From a virus, in IMG/VR virus record IMGVR_UViG_3300027806_000061, positions 1 through 44,499 of that record: a stretch of DNA of 44,499 nucleotides; one strand, 5' to 3'. Position numbers and translations under genes: made by a program. Positions within the stretch are counted from its first letter, which is position 1, and every line of letters begins with the position of its first letter. Positions 1,810 to 8,288 of the stretch are shown piece after piece. The notes beneath the pieces are model-generated. The model made no database searches. It was not told the origin of the DNA and saw nothing but the letters and a program-made list of their open reading frames with translations.

Positions 1810-1950
1810 TCATGCGCGAGACTTGAGCCAGTCGTTGATGACTGCTCGTGCCTCGCTCTTCTGCCGAGCCGTTGCCGTAGGTGACAGCGCCTCGTGGCAG
1901 ATCTGGAGTAGCCGCTCGAAGGCAGCCAGGAGTTCGTCGAGTTCTTTCAT
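1810..1950 (-). CDS. 46-residue helical protein
   Basis: Begins MKELDELLAAFERLLQICHEAL and ends DWLKSRA. It looks like two amphipathic helices joined by a Ser/Thr-rich turn (SPTATARQ). The ATG at 1950 overlaps the stop of the VWA protein gene as ATGA, so translation is probably coupled to it, and the two products may work together. The small size and acidic helix suggest a partner or adaptor protein, but no family is recognised. The intergenic UUCG hairpin follows the stop. Confidence 0.65.
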   Translation of the reverse strand: MKELDELLAAFERLLQICHEALSPTATARQKSEARAVINDWLKSRA

Positions 1951-3065
1951 GATGCGTCCATGGTGAAGTGGATGACGTCGCCGTACGGCGCCTCCACGTC
2001 AGTTGAGATGCACCACACGACAGGATAGGCGGGCTTGCTACTCGGGTCGAACGACGTGTAGCCGTCGGTCAGGCACACGAACACCTCGGGGTCGATGCCC
2101 TTGTCCTCGATGTACTTGAAACCAGCCTCCATGTCGGTGCCGCCGCCAGCGTAGAACTCCAGGGCGAACTCCTCACCGCGCTCGAAGGTGTCGTGCTTAC
2201 ACACCGAAGTGTCGACGTACAAGACGTGCACACGCTCCGGGCTGCACAGCTCGATGATGCGAGCGAGGTGGCCGTTGTAGTAGTTCAACTCACGCGGGCT
2301 GATGGAGCCGCTGACGTCGATCTGGATGACGACCTCGCCCATCTCGGCGACCTTGCCGGGGGAGGGCAGGTACTGCTCGAAGCGACGGTTGGGCCGCGCC
2401 CACGACACCTCGCCGCGCTTGAACGACGTCATGTAGCGCTCAAGGATCTCGTACCAGGGCGTGCCCGGGTCGATCAGGTCGGCGATGATCTTCTGGAGCG
2501 ATGCGGGCAGCTTGCCTTGCATCTTGGCAGCCTGGGCAGCCTGCGCGACTTCCACACGCGTCTCGGCGTCGATCTTGTCGGCCTCGTCGGCAGTGAGTGG
2601 TGCCCCACGCTCGATCAGGTCGTCGCCGATACCGCCGGGGCCGGGCACGCGTCCACTGCCGTCCTGCTCCTCGGGCAGCTTGTTGTAGATGGCGTCGACC
2701 GTGTCGTCCTTGGAGCCGGGCATGTCCACGCCGCCGGGGATGAAGTCACCGATCTTGGCGTCCTTGAGCATGTCGTTGATCCAGGCGTCGCCGGCGATGT
2801 TCCACCGCTTGGCCTGCCGGGCACCGCGCCGTGAGGCGTGCTGGCCGATGACGTGACCGACCTCGTGGGCGAGGAGGAACACGGCTTGGTCGACCGTGAG
2901 CTTCTCGATGAAGTCCGGGTTGTAGTAGATCTGACCGCGTTGGTCGACGGCGGCAGTCGGGATCGACTTGTCGGCGATCAGCTTGCGCTTCAACAGGATG
3001 GAGGCGAAGAAGGGGTGCTGTGTGACGATGGCGACCTTGGCCTTGTCGAGCTTGGTGATGGTCAT
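1947..3065 (-). CDS. metallopeptidase-like / VWA-like protein (DUF2201 type)
   Basis: 372 residues in two recognisable parts. The N-terminal part has a zinc-peptidase-like motif HEVGHVIGQH (HExxH at residues 67-71). The C-terminal part is a von Willebrand A-like domain: DVSGS at 250-254 is the MIDAS metal-binding motif, GGGTDM lies at 308-313 and LTDGYT at 332-337. This pairing is the layout of the DUF2201 family, whose members usually sit beside MoxR AAA+ ATPases. A MoxR ATPase is encoded 2.3 kb upstream in the same operon. Known MoxR/VWA pairs act in metal insertion or remodelling of target complexes; the role in phages is not established. The start ATG follows AAGGA at a good distance. Confidence 0.9.
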   Translation of the reverse strand: MTITKLDKAKVAIVTQHPFFASILLKRKLIADKSIPTAAVDQRGQIYYNPDFIEKLTVDQAVFLLAHEVGHVIGQHASRRGARQAKRWNIAGDAWINDMLKDAKIGDFIPGGVDMPGSKDDTVDAIYNKLPEEQDGSGRVPGPGGIGDDLIERGAPLTADEADKIDAETRVEVAQAAQAAKMQGKLPASLQKIIADLIDPGTPWYEILERYMTSFKRGEVSWARPNRRFEQYLPSPGKVAEMGEVVIQIDVSGSISPRELNYYNGHLARIIELCSPERVHVLYVDTSVCKHDTFERGEEFALEFYAGGGTDMEAGFKYIEDKGIDPEVFVCLTDGYTSFDPSSKPAYPVVWCISTDVEAPYGDVIHFTMDAS

Positions 3066-3089
3066 GGTGTTGTCCTTTCAGTGAGTGAG

Positions 3090-3650
3090 TTAGACGTTGG
3101 GTGGGATGGCGTGCAGTTCCATCGGCGTGTCCTCCATGAGGGCCCGCGCGGCTTGCTTGTGTCGGTGGTCAGTGACGGCCTGCTTGCGGTGGTACGCGAG
3201 GTTGATGACCATAGCCTCATTCATGCGGGCCGTTGAATGGAAGTGGGCCCAGTGTCTTTCCCCCGACAAAAGTTCGGCCACTCCAGCGCGGTGGTTGTCT
3301 TTGACTCTAGTCGGGTCGAAGTATTTGTCGTGGTCTTTCAGCAGGTACTGCACGAGGTCGACCTCCATGATGCGGACCACCTCAGCACGTACGTCGTCGG
3401 CCTTGGGGACGTCCATGTAGTGTTTGCTTGGCCGCACGCGGCCAAGCGAGATGCCGAAGTTCTCAGCGACGATCTGGGCGATCTTGGCCGACTTGGACGA
3501 CCAGCCGCCCACAGCCACACCGTCTTCGATCATGCGAGCTGCCATCTTGCGCAGCCGTGGGGGGATGCTCCTGGGGTCCAGGGTCATCGTGGTCTTGATG
3601 CCGGGCAGGGCCATTACCCGGGCTGTCTGGAACATGTCCGTTGTTTTCAC
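3090..3650 (-). CDS. hypothetical protein of the MoxR/VWA cassette
   Basis: 186 residues. I chose the GTG at 3650 because AAAGGAGAG stands about 7 bases before it; the next candidate, an ATG five codons in, lacks such a site. The protein is basic and His-rich, with SIPPRLRKMAARMIEDGVAVGGW near residues 25-47 and a helical region SAKIAQIVAENFGISLGRV that could be a DNA-binding helix-turn-helix. The C-terminal half carries several His residues (HWAHFH, HRHK). No family recognised. It lies between the VWA gene and the small gene 3655-3864 and is probably part of the same functional cassette. Confidence 0.75.
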   Translation of the reverse strand: MKTTDMFQTARVMALPGIKTTMTLDPRSIPPRLRKMAARMIEDGVAVGGWSSKSAKIAQIVAENFGISLGRVRPSKHYMDVPKADDVRAEVVRIMEVDLVQYLLKDHDKYFDPTRVKDNHRAGVAELLSGERHWAHFHSTARMNEAMVINLAYHRKQAVTDHRHKQAARALMEDTPMELHAIPPNV

Positions 3651-3654
3651 AGGG

Positions 3655-3864
3655 TTACTCTCCTTTGAGTTTGATGAGGGTGCCGTACCAGATGAAGGCT
3701 TCGGCGAGTGACACGTGCCCAGGCAATACGTGCGAGGACTCTGCGCGTCCATCGTTGAACACGTTGATGGCTGTCTCGTCGGGGTTGGTGAACTGCACGA
3801 CGTTGACGTAGAACGTAGGCGAGCGCCAACTGAGTTGGCGGAGCTTGCTACCCGCCGCATCCAT
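3655..3864 (-). CDS. 69-residue hypothetical protein
   Basis: Begins MDAAGSKLRQLSW and contains a probable beta-rich core (TFYVNVVQFTNPDETAINVF), then a helix ending LIKLKGE. The ATG overlaps the stop of the upstream DUF3150-like gene (TGATG), so translation is likely coupled. No strong ribosome site precedes it, which fits coupling. I do not recognise the family. Its place inside the ATPase/VWA cassette suggests an accessory subunit. Confidence 0.65.
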   Translation of the reverse strand: MDAAGSKLRQLSWRSPTFYVNVVQFTNPDETAINVFNDGRAESSHVLPGHVSLAEAFIWYGTLIKLKGE

Positions 3865-4742
3865 CAGAAGTACGCAGCCATCTTGTCCGCTGCCTCTGCG
3901 AGCTTGGCGCGTGCGTCGTGGCGCACCATGGCGCTGCCCTTGACCATCTCGACGTTGTCCAGGTAACGCTTGGCCAGCGTCTCCAGCTCGTCCATGTGGG
4001 CGGTCAGCTCAGGCGTCGGGAACAGCATCAGCGAGCGTGCCTCCTTGATGCCATCGAGCACGTTGGAGATCACGCTGTTGTGGAAGCGCTCACCCTTCTG
4101 GCCCTGGTACTCACCGAGCCGCTCCACCAGCGCACCTAGGGGCTTGAGCATGCGGTTGATGGTGTCGGCGTTGGCCGCAGCCAGCGCGTCGTTCTCGGCC
4201 TGCTCACAGGCTTGCAGGTCGGAGTCGGACAGGTCGAACAGGAAGTGCCTCGCGTCGGGCATGGGCTGGAACTTGTACTCCAGCGACATGCTGCGTCGGA
4301 AGGCATCAGCGCTCGGGTACTCGTCAACGTGTGCACGTCCAGCAGCCCGGCCCGAGTTGCGGTACGCGACGTCGTTGAGCACCAGTTGGTCGTAGTGCGG
4401 CATGTAGTGGTCGAGCATGTTGTCGACCTTGGCCGTGCGGTGCTTCACCTCCTGGGTGTAGGCAAAGTAGTTGGCGTTGGGGAGAATCCTCGGGCCAGCG
4501 TCCACGTAGGGCAGGGTGTGCGTCTTGTGGTACGTGTACACCTCGTTGACGGCCGCCATGATCCGGTTGATCGGGCTGTGCTTATCCTGGAACAGCTTGG
4601 TGAGCACGGTGATACCGGCGTCACCTTCGGCGGCCTGCACCTTGGCAGTCAGGGCGTTGTCGCGCTTGGTGAGTGCTGCGCGACGGATGGTGAGCTTGAC
4701 GAGAACGGCCTTGTCGGCCAGCTTGGAAACGCGAGTCAGCAT
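3864..4742 (-). CDS. DUF3150-like helical protein
   Basis: 292 residues, almost wholly helical. It starts MLTRVSKLADKAVLVKLTIRRAAL and has long charged helices in the second half (residues about 170-285). The ATG at 4742 has AGGAG upstream. From memory, the general layout and its place beside a MoxR/CobS-like ATPase recall DUF3150 proteins of phages and prophages, which are about this length. I see no catalytic motif, and the family match is tentative. It overlaps its downstream neighbour by one base and its upstream neighbour by seven, so it is embedded in the cassette. Confidence 0.8.
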   Translation of the reverse strand: MLTRVSKLADKAVLVKLTIRRAALTKRDNALTAKVQAAEGDAGITVLTKLFQDKHSPINRIMAAVNEVYTYHKTHTLPYVDAGPRILPNANYFAYTQEVKHRTAKVDNMLDHYMPHYDQLVLNDVAYRNSGRAAGRAHVDEYPSADAFRRSMSLEYKFQPMPDARHFLFDLSDSDLQACEQAENDALAAANADTINRMLKPLGALVERLGEYQGQKGERFHNSVISNVLDGIKEARSLMLFPTPELTAHMDELETLAKRYLDNVEMVKGSAMVRHDARAKLAEAADKMAAYF

Positions 4743-5068
4743 TTGATGCTCCTGAGAAATTCATTGAGTTCGCGGTTGATGAACTTGCCCATCAGGACCT
4801 TGTCCAGGTCGTCTCTCGTGATGGACTCTTCGGTGAAGATCTTGTAAAAACCTCCCCCTGGGGTGAAGCGGGCACGCAGCCAGATTCCGCTCGCCGCTTG
4901 GACCTTCGAGCGCAGGCTGTCCCCCGAGCCCGGCTCCAAGGTGTCGGCTACTTGGCACACAGTCTCGAAGGACTCGGGGGTGTGGCCTACCACGGCTGTG
5001 ACGTCGGCGAACCAGTCGACGAACCTGCCGTCCCTGTCTTGCTGCACTGTGAACAGGTAGGTGTTCAC
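4736..5068 (-). CDS. 110-residue hypothetical protein, GTG start
   Basis: Starts at GTG (5068), with AGGAGG five bases upstream, the strongest ribosome site in this part of the operon. The product (MNTYLFTVQQDRDGRFVDWF) has an N-terminal beta-like segment, an acidic middle, and a C-terminal helix FINRELNEFLRSIKC. The last codons overlap the start of the DUF3150-like gene. No recognised family. Its position within the MoxR-to-VWA cassette suggests a role alongside those proteins. Confidence 0.75.
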   Translation of the reverse strand: MNTYLFTVQQDRDGRFVDWFADVTAVVGHTPESFETVCQVADTLEPGSGDSLRSKVQAASGIWLRARFTPGGGFYKIFTEESITRDDLDKVLMGKFINRELNEFLRSIKC

Positions 5069-5079
5069 TTAGCCTCCTT

Positions 5080-5349
5080 TCAGTTAGTAAGTACGAGGAT
5101 GGCCAGGGCCGTGGCCTTCGCCTCTTCGACGCTCTTGGCCTCGATCATGGTGGGCGGGGGGTTGCCGCCCGGGCGGTCGATGCGCCACTGCTGCATCCTG
5201 TCGGCCCAGTTTGCAGCGCGGGTCAAGCCCAGGTACGTGATGCGCCCCCGGATGCGCCAGTTGATCAAGTTGGCGTCCATGTCGTGCAGGTCCCACACTT
5301 CGCCGTCGCCGGTGTTGTATCTGGGGCTTCGCCACTCCAGGCGAGTCAC
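5080..5349 (-). CDS. 89-residue hypothetical protein, GTG start
   Basis: The GTG at 5349 overlaps the stop of the MoxR gene, so translation is probably coupled. A longer reading from 5415 would run into the ATPase gene and is less likely. The product (VTRLEWRSPRYNTGDGEVWDL) has a beta-rich N-terminal half with many Trp and Arg residues (INWRIRGRITYLGL), followed by a helix ending in AKATALAILVLTN. No function recognised. Confidence 0.65.
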   Translation of the reverse strand: MTRLEWRSPRYNTGDGEVWDLHDMDANLINWRIRGRITYLGLTRAANWADRMQQWRIDRPGGNPPPTMIEAKSVEEAKATALAILVLTN

Positions 5350-6350
5350 ATCAGCACCTCGGCGTTGCGCGTCGCCCACTCGGAGAACGAGCGGGTGTTC
5401 TGCACGTCCTTGCACAGCTTGAGCGAGTCCTTGACGGTCATGACGTCGAACTCCTTGGGCAGGCGGGCCGTGTAGGTCGTGATGCGGTCGAAGTTGTCCT
5501 TCGTGGCCTTGCGGGCCAGCGCACCCGTGATGGCGAAGCGCACTGCCGGGTCATCGGGCACGTCGGCACCCTTGGGGTCGAGCAGCAGCGCGTCGATGTT
5601 GGGCAGCGCACGGAAGATCTTGCGAAAGCCCGTGTACTCGGCAGCCGCGCCCTCACCGACCTCGCCGGCCACGTTGTCGAAGTAGAGCTGCTCGGGCAGC
5701 GAGTCGGGGATGTAGGACGTGCGCTCCCACGAGCGCGGCGTCGGGTTGCAGAAGCGGTTGGGGTCGAAGTCGCTGATGAGCCCGGGCCGGAAGCGCAGGA
5801 ACTGGATCAACTCCACAGGCCAGCCGGCGTTCAGTGCGTACTCGCACAGGTCGTCGAGGTTCTCCGTGAAGTCGAAGCGCCGCGTGCGGTTGGCGAGCTT
5901 GCTGGTGATGCGGTTGGCGCCGGACTTGTCCTCGGTGCGGTTACCCGTGGCGATGATGAACAGTTGCTCGGTCAGCGAGAGCTGGCCAGCGTGGCGGTCG
6001 TAGATGACGCGGCACAGCGCGTTCTGCATGGCCACGCTGCCGTCGCTGAGTTCCTCCAGGATGAGTGCTGCGCGACCTTGGCCCTGGCGGATGGAGTAGA
6101 ACTCCTTGGAGGCCAGCCAGTCGCTGTGGTCGCCCTTGGCGGAGGGCAAGCCCAGAATGTCCACGGGATCGCGCAGGCTGGCGTTGAACTCGATGACCTT
6201 GCCGGGCTCGATGCCCAACTCGCTCACGATCTCGCGGGCACAGGCGGACTTGCCACCACCGGGGGCGCCCAGGATGAACGGCACGACCTTGTTGCCGTTG
6301 GGGGCCTTGAACTGCTCCAGGATGGAGGCCTTGATGTGTTGATAGCGCAT
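5346..6350 (-). CDS. MoxR-type AAA+ ATPase
   Basis: 334 residues. Walker A is GAPGGGKS at 28-35, the Walker B-like ALILEE at 95-100, and the sensor-1 region IIATGN at 132-137, followed by NRTRRFDF. This is the MoxR/CobS branch of AAA+ ATPases, which usually work with a VWA-domain partner; the VWA protein at 1947-3065 in the same operon is the obvious candidate. Known relatives drive metal chelation or activate enzyme complexes. In phages the target is unknown. A GTTAGCAT promoter-like motif stands about 45 bases upstream of the start, so the cassette may have its own transcript. Confidence 0.92.
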   Translation of the reverse strand: MRYQHIKASILEQFKAPNGNKVVPFILGAPGGGKSACAREIVSELGIEPGKVIEFNASLRDPVDILGLPSAKGDHSDWLASKEFYSIRQGQGRAALILEELSDGSVAMQNALCRVIYDRHAGQLSLTEQLFIIATGNRTEDKSGANRITSKLANRTRRFDFTENLDDLCEYALNAGWPVELIQFLRFRPGLISDFDPNRFCNPTPRSWERTSYIPDSLPEQLYFDNVAGEVGEGAAAEYTGFRKIFRALPNIDALLLDPKGADVPDDPAVRFAITGALARKATKDNFDRITTYTARLPKEFDVMTVKDSLKLCKDVQNTRSFSEWATRNAEVLM

Positions 6351-6406: not shown

Positions 6407-6643
6407 TCAGATGTTAGGCGGCAAGAGTTCCTTGTAGGGGTTGGTGTTGAAGAGTTTGGCCACGGGAGCGAACTCCACGTTGCCCTCGGCGTCGCGGTTG
6501 ACCATGCACACAGTGGCCACGGGCTCGCCTGTACTGGCGTCGGTGCACTGCATGAGCGCGAGGTCTTGGTTCTTGGCTGCGCGCAGCAGGTTGTTGAAGT
6601 TGGCCTTGTGGCCAGCGGACAGGGCAGGGGATGCGTGTGTCAT
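6407..6643 (-). CDS. DUF6117-like small protein
   Basis: 78 residues. The pattern HKANFNNLLRAAKNQDLALMQC-TDASTGEPVATVCMVNRD followed by NPYKELLPP matches what I recall of DUF6117, a short family common in phages and mobile elements of Proteobacteria with no known role. The length fits the family. The ATG has GGAG upstream, and its first bases overlap the stop of the upstream gene (ATGA). It is separated from the MoxR gene by 56 bases containing the promoter-like motif. Confidence 0.8.
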   Translation of the reverse strand: MTHASPALSAGHKANFNNLLRAAKNQDLALMQCTDASTGEPVATVCMVNRDAEGNVEFAPVAKLFNTNPYKELLPPNI

Positions 6644-7319: not shown

Positions 7320-7591
7320 GCGCCCACCCTGCGCAGGCTGCGGATGAAGGAGTCCGCTCTCGGGCTGTTGCGCTCCACGGTCTTGATGACGAAGCCCTGC
7401 GCCTTGGCGGCTTCGAGGAACACGGCTGCGTCGCAGTCCTCTTCGAGGTACAGCGTGTCCCCATCGTGGCTGCGGTAGCTGTAGCTGCTGATCTTCGGGA
7501 TGATGTGCAGGGCCACGGCGAGGGTGCGCGGGACTTCGAGCCATCCATGGCTCGGGTCGGAGTGGAAGTTGAGTTGGAGCAGGGTGCTCAT
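7316..7591 (-). CDS. 91-residue hypothetical protein
   Basis: Starts MSTLLQLNFHSDPSHGWLEV, with AAGGAGA just upstream of the ATG at 7591. The likely fold is a small alpha/beta unit: strand LLQLNF, helix RTLAVALHII, strands SSYSYRSHDGDTLYLEEDCD, and helix AAVFLEAAKAQGF. The segment GDTLYLEEDCDAAVFLEAAKAQG resembles phage proteins with a YLEEDxDA motif, whose function is unknown. It overlaps both neighbours by four bases. Confidence 0.75.
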   Translation of the reverse strand: MSTLLQLNFHSDPSHGWLEVPRTLAVALHIIPKISSYSYRSHDGDTLYLEEDCDAAVFLEAAKAQGFVIKTVERNSPRADSFIRSLRRVGA

Positions 7592-8073
7592 GGGGTCTCC
7601 TTGGTTGAGGGTTGGGGGTTGATTGCTATCGCTGCGGGCAGCAGCAACAGGGCGGCGTGGTTGTCTGGTTCGAGCCTGTAGAGGACTCTCACCGCTGTCG
7701 GGTCCATGTCCATGTATGGACCGCAGTCGTCCCAGCCGACCAAGGCTGCGATTGCGCCCGCGGCTGCGCCCGCGGCTGCGCCCCAGGCTGCGTCTCTGGC
7801 TGCGTCTCTGGCTGCGTCTATGACTGCTTCTCTGGCTGCGCCCGTGGCTGCGCCCCAGGCTGCGCCCCAGGCTGCGCCCCAGGCTGCGCCCCAGGCTGCG
7901 TCTCTGGCTGCGCCCGTGGCTGCGTCTATGACTGCGCCCGCGGCTGCGCCCCAGGCTGCGCCCCAGGCTGCGTCTCTGGCTGCGCCCCATCGGTCGGGGT
8001 GGTCTCGCAGGGACTTGAGGACTCTGTCTATCCTCGCAGCGTTGGGCAGGTGCGCCCATGGTGTGGCGGTCAT
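7588..8073 (-). CDS. alanine-rich tetrapeptide-repeat protein
   Basis: 161 residues. The first 35 (MTATPWAHLPNAARIDRVL, then RDHPDRWGAAR) are ordinary sequence. Residues about 30-110 are some twenty tandem four-residue units of the types WGAA, RDAA, AGAA, IDAA and TGAA. These would form a long alanine-rich helix or solenoid with Trp, Asp and Arg at regular spacing. The last 50 residues (GWDDCGPYMDMDPTAVRVL) are again normal. Similar AAWDAA-type repeat proteins are known in phages and actinobacteria without a firm function. The repeat DNA has a 12-bp period and could change copy number easily. Confidence 0.8.
   Translation of the reverse strand: MTATPWAHLPNAARIDRVLKSLRDHPDRWGAARDAAWGAAWGAAAGAVIDAATGAARDAAWGAAWGAAWGAAWGAATGAAREAVIDAARDAARDAAWGAAAGAAAGAIAALVGWDDCGPYMDMDPTAVRVLYRLEPDNHAALLLLPAAIAINPQPSTKETP
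7744..7992. repeat. 12-bp tandem repeat array inside the Ala-rich gene
   Basis: About twenty units of 12 bp read on the plus strand as GCTGCGCCCCAG, GCTGCGTCTCTG, GCTGCGCCCGCG, GCTGCGCCCGTG or GCTGCGTCTATG. Four identical GGCTGCGCCCCA units stand in a row from 7847 to 7894. Being a multiple of three, copy changes keep the frame. Confidence 0.9.
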
Positions 8074-8288
8074 GGACCCGGCTCTCCGGCGTGAGTGCTG
8101 CGCGTCCTGGCCAGGACCTCGTCGAAGGTGGGCAGGCGTTGCATGGTGTCGATGAACTTGTAGGACTGACACACGGCGCAGCCCGGCTCGAAGTCCGGGC
8201 ACCGAGGTCCTGCGATGCGTGCGAGGGTGTGCAGTCCCTCACGGATGCGCTGCTTGCGCAGCGCGTTGTTGCGGGTGCGGATGCTCAT
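8070..8288 (-). CDS. 72-residue protein with Cys cluster
   Basis: Begins MSIRTRNNALRKQRIREGL, a basic helix, then has Cys30, Cys37 and Cys40 in GPRCPDFEPGCAVC, which with a nearby His could bind zinc. AGGAG lies ahead of the ATG. It overlaps the start of the Ala-repeat gene and the end of the upstream gene by four bases each. A small nucleic-acid-binding protein is possible, but I recognise no family. Confidence 0.7.
   Translation of the reverse strand: MSIRTRNNALRKQRIREGLHTLARIAGPRCPDFEPGCAVCQSYKFIDTMQRLPTFDEVLARTRSTHAGEPGP

Follow-up and report, generated by a model that had tools for sequence, protein, structure and literature searches.

The NorQ/NorD and CbbQ/CbbO systems combine a MoxR AAA+ ring with a VWA protein, and structures of NorQ/NorD have led to a proposed way in which such a ring and its partner act on a client (PMC13036017, PMC9976466). 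The client of NorQ/NorD is known to be nitric oxide reductase. Neither system includes a metallopeptidase domain or DUF3150 in its described architecture; NorD comprises an N-terminal domain, a linker, and a VWA domain. An ATPase/VWA pair is also already known in phages. Bacteriophage N4 gp24 and gp25, which are core genes of N4-like phages without known function (PMC4193335), encode an ATPase and a DUF2201 protein with HExxH and VWA parts, adjacent to each other in a non-structural region. Similarly, group 2.2 jumbo phages encode a MoxR ATPase together with a vWA protein that carries a metallopeptidase at its N-terminus; the available text of that study describes them as a pair, assigns them to virion assembly, and mentions neither a third component nor plasmid copies (PMC7824862).

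Here, we analyzed a 44,499-nt viral record (hereafter, the window) encoding homologs of the N4 pair with a DUF3150-like gene between them. The third gene sets the window apart from N4, in which no DUF3150-like gene was detected between gp24 and gp25 or within 35 kb around them. The MoxR ring and VWA protein are shared with NorQ/NorD and CbbQ/CbbO, and the metallopeptidase–VWA fusion with the jumbo phages. A three-gene version with DUF3150 common to phages and plasmids is not described in the literature searched (one collection, whose silence is not proof of absence), and the same collection contains no mention of DUF3150.

Layout of the cassette in the window

All eight open reading frames that a sequence-only reading had named between 1810 and 6350 were confirmed at their assigned positions, all on the minus strand, and its central observation holds: genes for a MoxR-like AAA+ ATPase (5346–6350; 334 aa), a DUF3150-like helical protein (3864–4742; 292 aa), and a DUF2201 protein with an HExxH metallopeptidase-like part and a VWA domain (1947–3065; 372 aa) lie together at 1947–6350. 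The four small genes were likewise found packed between the three larger ones, encoding products of 89 aa (5080–5349), 110 aa (4736–5068), 69 aa (3655–3864), and 186 aa (3090–3650). A 46-aa gene (1810–1950) overlaps the stop codon of the VWA gene. Junctions throughout the cassette are short or overlapping, several of them overlapping by a few bases. The operon had been drawn to end at the 46-aa gene; its listed genes stand, but it continues into a 235-aa gene on the same strand (1049–1756), which was missing from that list and is kept in 74 of the 80 relatives with room for it.

Upstream of the ATPase gene, a small gene at 6407–6643 matches DUF6117 (PF19612, 1.1e-16) and is conserved only in the nearest relatives, and an alanine-rich ORF at 7588–8202 lies on a 12-base/72-base tandem repeat (7753–7988), in which the 12-mer recurs approximately 20 times. 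The record seems to be part of a phage genome of roughly 60 kb: it lacks the polymerase A gene found downstream of the cassette in relatives, and the strand encoding the cassette continues past its left end. A DNA-level search found no relatives among named phages, and promoter and terminator scans were uninformative.

The conserved unit and its accessory genes

Viral contigs were fetched with three seeds (the DUF3150-like, VWA, and ATPase genes), and linkage was scored using profiles of the window's own proteins. Gene order and strand were identical in 161 of 161 loci carrying all three genes, the DUF3150-like gene lying between the ATPase and VWA genes each time; with order and strand fixed to this extent, the conservation of the trio is not due to chance. 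Because some of these loci share a contig, we also give cluster counts, which were 73, 26, and 13 at 95%, 70%, and 50% identity of the DUF3150-like protein, respectively. The trio in this order was seen in viral contigs, Burkholderiales plasmids, and metagenome-assembled genomes. Reciprocal seeding gave the same picture: VWA-gene loci with at least 3 kb upstream contained the ATPase gene in 72/72 and the DUF3150-like gene in 68/72 cases, and of the loci seeded with the ATPase and extending 4.5 kb or more downstream, 25/25 contained both other genes. In one locus (L059), the three core genes stand back to back with nothing between them, separated by gaps of 32 and 21 bases. The pattern that the sequence-only reading had named as refuting a single system, relatives with the ATPase or VWA gene alone and unrelated genes in between, was borne out by half: neither gene occurred alone where this was tested in the group, but the genes separating them are unrelated ones that are gained and lost. 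The vequintavirus EmilHeitz (L225:1-5811) carries its MoxR ATPase and metallopeptidase genes on opposite strands, approximately 4 kb apart.

The small genes between the core genes are mostly interchangeable passengers outside the conserved unit. The 110-aa gene at 4736–5068 is private to the window, being absent from the locus of every relative, including the near-identical L002 and L003, whose DUF3150-like proteins are 97% identical to that of the window; alignments of both jump cleanly from window position 5074 to 4753, which marks a one-gene indel. The 186-aa gene at 3090–3650 is common (65 loci), fast evolving, and dispensable, as it is cleanly missing from L003, in which the alignment is otherwise 95–97% identical. 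Its product has no family match, and Pfam searches on its family returned only scattered matches at chance level. The remaining two are patchy: 5080–5349 occurs in 21 loci and evolves quickly (dN/dS 0.5–0.86), and 3655–3864 occurs in 32 loci at two different positions. The proposal of one multi-part system thus stands for the ATPase, DUF3150-like, and VWA genes, with their fixed order and reciprocal recovery, and falls for the four small genes, with their patchy distribution and indels.

Including the 46-aa gene in that system is supported by linkage (kept in 63 of the 80 relatives with room; dN 0 with dS 0.13 against L002), and the same kind of linkage supports 1049–1756. The latter family has an invariant core CK..NEA and a weak match to Nmad5 in 7 of 27 members (best, 2e-4). 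A fold search of the PDB with this protein returned nothing at E ≤ 0.001, and no protein relative was found among named phages.

Features of the three core proteins

The ATPase matched phrog_1297 (E 1e-59), and its Pfam match was a weak one to AAA, with AAA/AAA_5 below cut-off. All the features of an AAA+ module (Walker A, Walker B, sensor 1, and arginine finger) are present: Walker A (GAPGGGKS), a Walker-B-like ALILEEL, sensor-1 N137, and R155 are conserved, G31, K34, and N137 being invariant and R155 near-invariant among 17 diverse sequences. Walker B reads ILEE, with E-E instead of the usual D-E. Profile comparison with the PDB returned the AAA modules of NorQ, CbbQ, CobS, and Midasin; Midasin modules ranked first, NorQ was matched at E 3.7e-10, and Clp ATPases scored similarly. 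The VWA partner of a MoxR ATPase was identified here through gene linkage, the two genes occurring together in every locus long enough to show both. The dN/dS of the ATPase was approximately 0.25.

The DUF2201 protein matched PF13203 (DUF2201_N; E 1.8e-48, 165.9 bits against a cut-off of 23.2) and PF09967 (DUF2201; E 4e-20, 72.6 bits against 26.4), in both cases above the curated cut-off. Among 21 phage, plasmid, and metagenome-assembled sequences, the residues of the HExxH part (H67, E68, H71, H76, and D93) and the full MIDAS motif of the VWA domain (D250, S252, S254, T310, and D334) were invariant, which suggests that the zincin-like site and the putatively client-gripping VWA domain are probably both in use. 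Among solved structures, the peptidase part matched a single relative, MJ1213 (PDB 4QHF; residues 28–68, E 9.5e-4), an active metallopeptidase called selecase. MJ1213 is a stand-alone protein of 110 aa without a VWA domain or an ATPase, unlike the DUF2201 protein of the window. Despite their HExxH and VWA/MIDAS motifs, phrog_1314 in PHROGs and N4 gp25 (L101:6165-7304) in RefSeq are labelled "HNH endonuclease", a label repeated in many phage records.

Assignment of the third protein was less direct. The product of 3864–4742 had no direct Pfam or PHROG family match, and scores against PF11348 were below the cut-off of 24.9 bits for both the best phage member (19.0 bits) and the plasmid member (22.1 bits). 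Using hhalign, the phage family aligned at E 1.8e-51 with a family from plasmids to which cyanophage MinM2 had led. A mixed phage and plasmid profile matched curated DUF3150 proteins (E 1e-8) over the N-terminal half only, and the phage-only profile matched neither curated DUF3150 alone nor one pCAR1 protein; the link from phage to curated proteins therefore relies on intermediates and needed an alignment in which members from phages and plasmids were combined. In an AF2 model (pLDDT 87.9), the second-best structural match was a viral protein named DUF3150 (TM 0.76). A weaker match was to a Mycobacterium phage Dylan protein that, judging from protein length, is Dylan gene 94, which adjoins an AAA ATPase gene. 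Against PDB folds, the model gave nothing significant, matching only a generic helical bundle at its C-terminal half. Because the Pfam cut-off was not reached, we refer to the protein as DUF3150-like and do not file it as a family member. Its gene is under purifying selection among the nearest relatives (dN/dS 0.13–0.29). Planctomycetes and further metagenome-assembled genomes contain distant DUF3150-like loci (L159–L182) that show neither DUF2201 nor the cassette-type ATPase; a different, larger AAA protein lies nearby in the three examined, and DUF3150-like proteins may therefore be general AAA+ companions.

Genomic context and proposed function

Seeding genomes with the plasmid DUF3150-like family yielded 80 loci. 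The same trio was found on Burkholderiales/Rhodovastum plasmids and on contigs of metagenome-assembled genomes (L103–L158), where the VWA gene follows the DUF3150-like gene in 56/56 loci (median gap between the two, 28 bp) and the ATPase gene is present in 54/56, the other two loci starting near a contig end. Plasmid copies adjoin type IV secretion genes or sit on plasmids typed as conjugative. A second MoxR/VWA lineage occurs on conjugative plasmids, including the IncP-7 plasmid pCAR1, for which conservation of ORF100-103 was noted earlier (PMC2642839). Its genes for MoxR, an annotated DUF3150, and a long NorD-type VWA protein have the same order and orientation as in the window, whereas the ATPase is distant (18% identity), the NorD-type VWA protein replaces DUF2201, and DUF3150 is longer. 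This lineage mostly adjoins RecT/Bet or lambda-exonuclease genes. Two exceptions to its order, an IncC plasmid region with no ATPase listed before DUF3150 and a Vibrio plasmid with no VWA listed after it, come from plasmid gene tables that are incomplete. In phages, 7/7 relatives encode a polymerase A on the strand of the cassette, 3.5–7.2 kb downstream of VWA, and the terminase is on the strand opposite to the cassette in 6/6 relatives with a match, as in the window. The polymerase gene is not in the window, and a DnaB-type helicase was not found in the relatives.

Taken as a whole, these data are best explained by a three-subunit AAA+ remodelling machine whose client belongs to the DNA replication/recombination apparatus, or is a host complex of that phase, an explanation to which we give an even chance of being correct. 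The MoxR-like ATPase would form a hexamer, as is typical of its family. By analogy with NorQ/NorD, the VWA domain of the DUF2201 subunit would dock on the ATPase, its intact MIDAS gripping the client, and ATP cycling would twist or pull that client. The HExxH domain, invariant across the family, may then clip the client or handle a metal. The fixed linkage of the DUF3150-like protein points to a dedicated third subunit, either an adaptor or itself a client. This mechanism is supported by the fixed gene order, the invariance of the catalytic HExxH and MIDAS residues, the retained ATPase motifs, and purifying selection. A client in the element's own replication/recombination apparatus, or a host complex met in that phase, seems most likely because phages carry the module in a replication operon and plasmids carry it next to recombination genes. 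Against the explanation, not every such system needs the third protein: in the stretches covered, N4, Presley, and CRP-7 showed the ATPase/VWA pair but no detectable DUF3150. The intermediates needed to reach curated DUF3150 and the atypical Walker B also count against it.

Among the alternatives, a counter-defence or anti-restriction machine acting against host complexes that attack incoming DNA is unlikely. In its favour, the trio is common to phages and conjugative plasmids, which alike arrive in cells as foreign DNA; it adjoins recombination genes on plasmids and encloses small genes that turn over quickly in the manner of accessory genes. The core itself evolves slowly, and N4-like phages have the pair in their core genome, unlike most anti-defence genes; furthermore, none of the PADLOC models of known anti-phage defence, a library that does not target anti-defence, matched the cassette at E ≤ 0.01. 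A related and rather unlikely idea is that the MoxR–DUF3150–VWA set, spread across unrelated mobile elements that include both phages and conjugative plasmids, would be an ATP-driven machine for dismantling or cleaving a host complex that acts on DNA as it enters or replicates, DUF3150 serving to recognize the target.

A virion-assembly chaperone with protease activity, in which the pair processes or folds structural proteins, was proposed for the same MoxR and metallopeptidase–vWA pair in jumbo phages (PMC7824862), and in S-TIM5 the second gene further along carries a structural annotation. The phage cassette shares its strand with the polymerase and is oriented against the terminase, the neighbours of N4 gp24/gp25 are mostly non-structural genes, and plasmids carrying the homologous trio make no virions; such a role is accordingly improbable here. 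On the same evidence of strands and plasmid copies, a viral cobaltochelatase (CobS/CobT) boosting host cobalamin synthesis via host CobN, as claimed for viral cobST gene pairs (PMC8651126), is very improbable: the ATPase profile matches CobS, but CobS is no closer to it than NorQ or Midasin, and the partner is a DUF2201 protein with no CobT Pfam match and with an invariant HExxH, a motif absent from the description of CobT. The described cobaltochelatase also has no DUF3150 subunit. The suggestion that everything in 1810–6350 forms one eight-part complex, prompted by the continuous overlapping packing in the window, is largely refuted by the clean one-gene gains and losses in L002 and L003 and by the uninterrupted core of L059, and can hardly be correct.

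The trio is thus probably a general ATP-driven remodelling machine of mobile-element DNA metabolism, and not a phage-assembly or vitamin gene set. The annotation of phrog_1314 and N4 gp25 as "HNH endonuclease" is an error that can now be corrected. Given the occurrence on plasmids and the constant third gene, fewer options are left: a role limited to virion assembly or cobalamin becomes unlikely, and a role in the DNA metabolism of mobile elements becomes testable in E. coli using N4 and conjugative plasmids.
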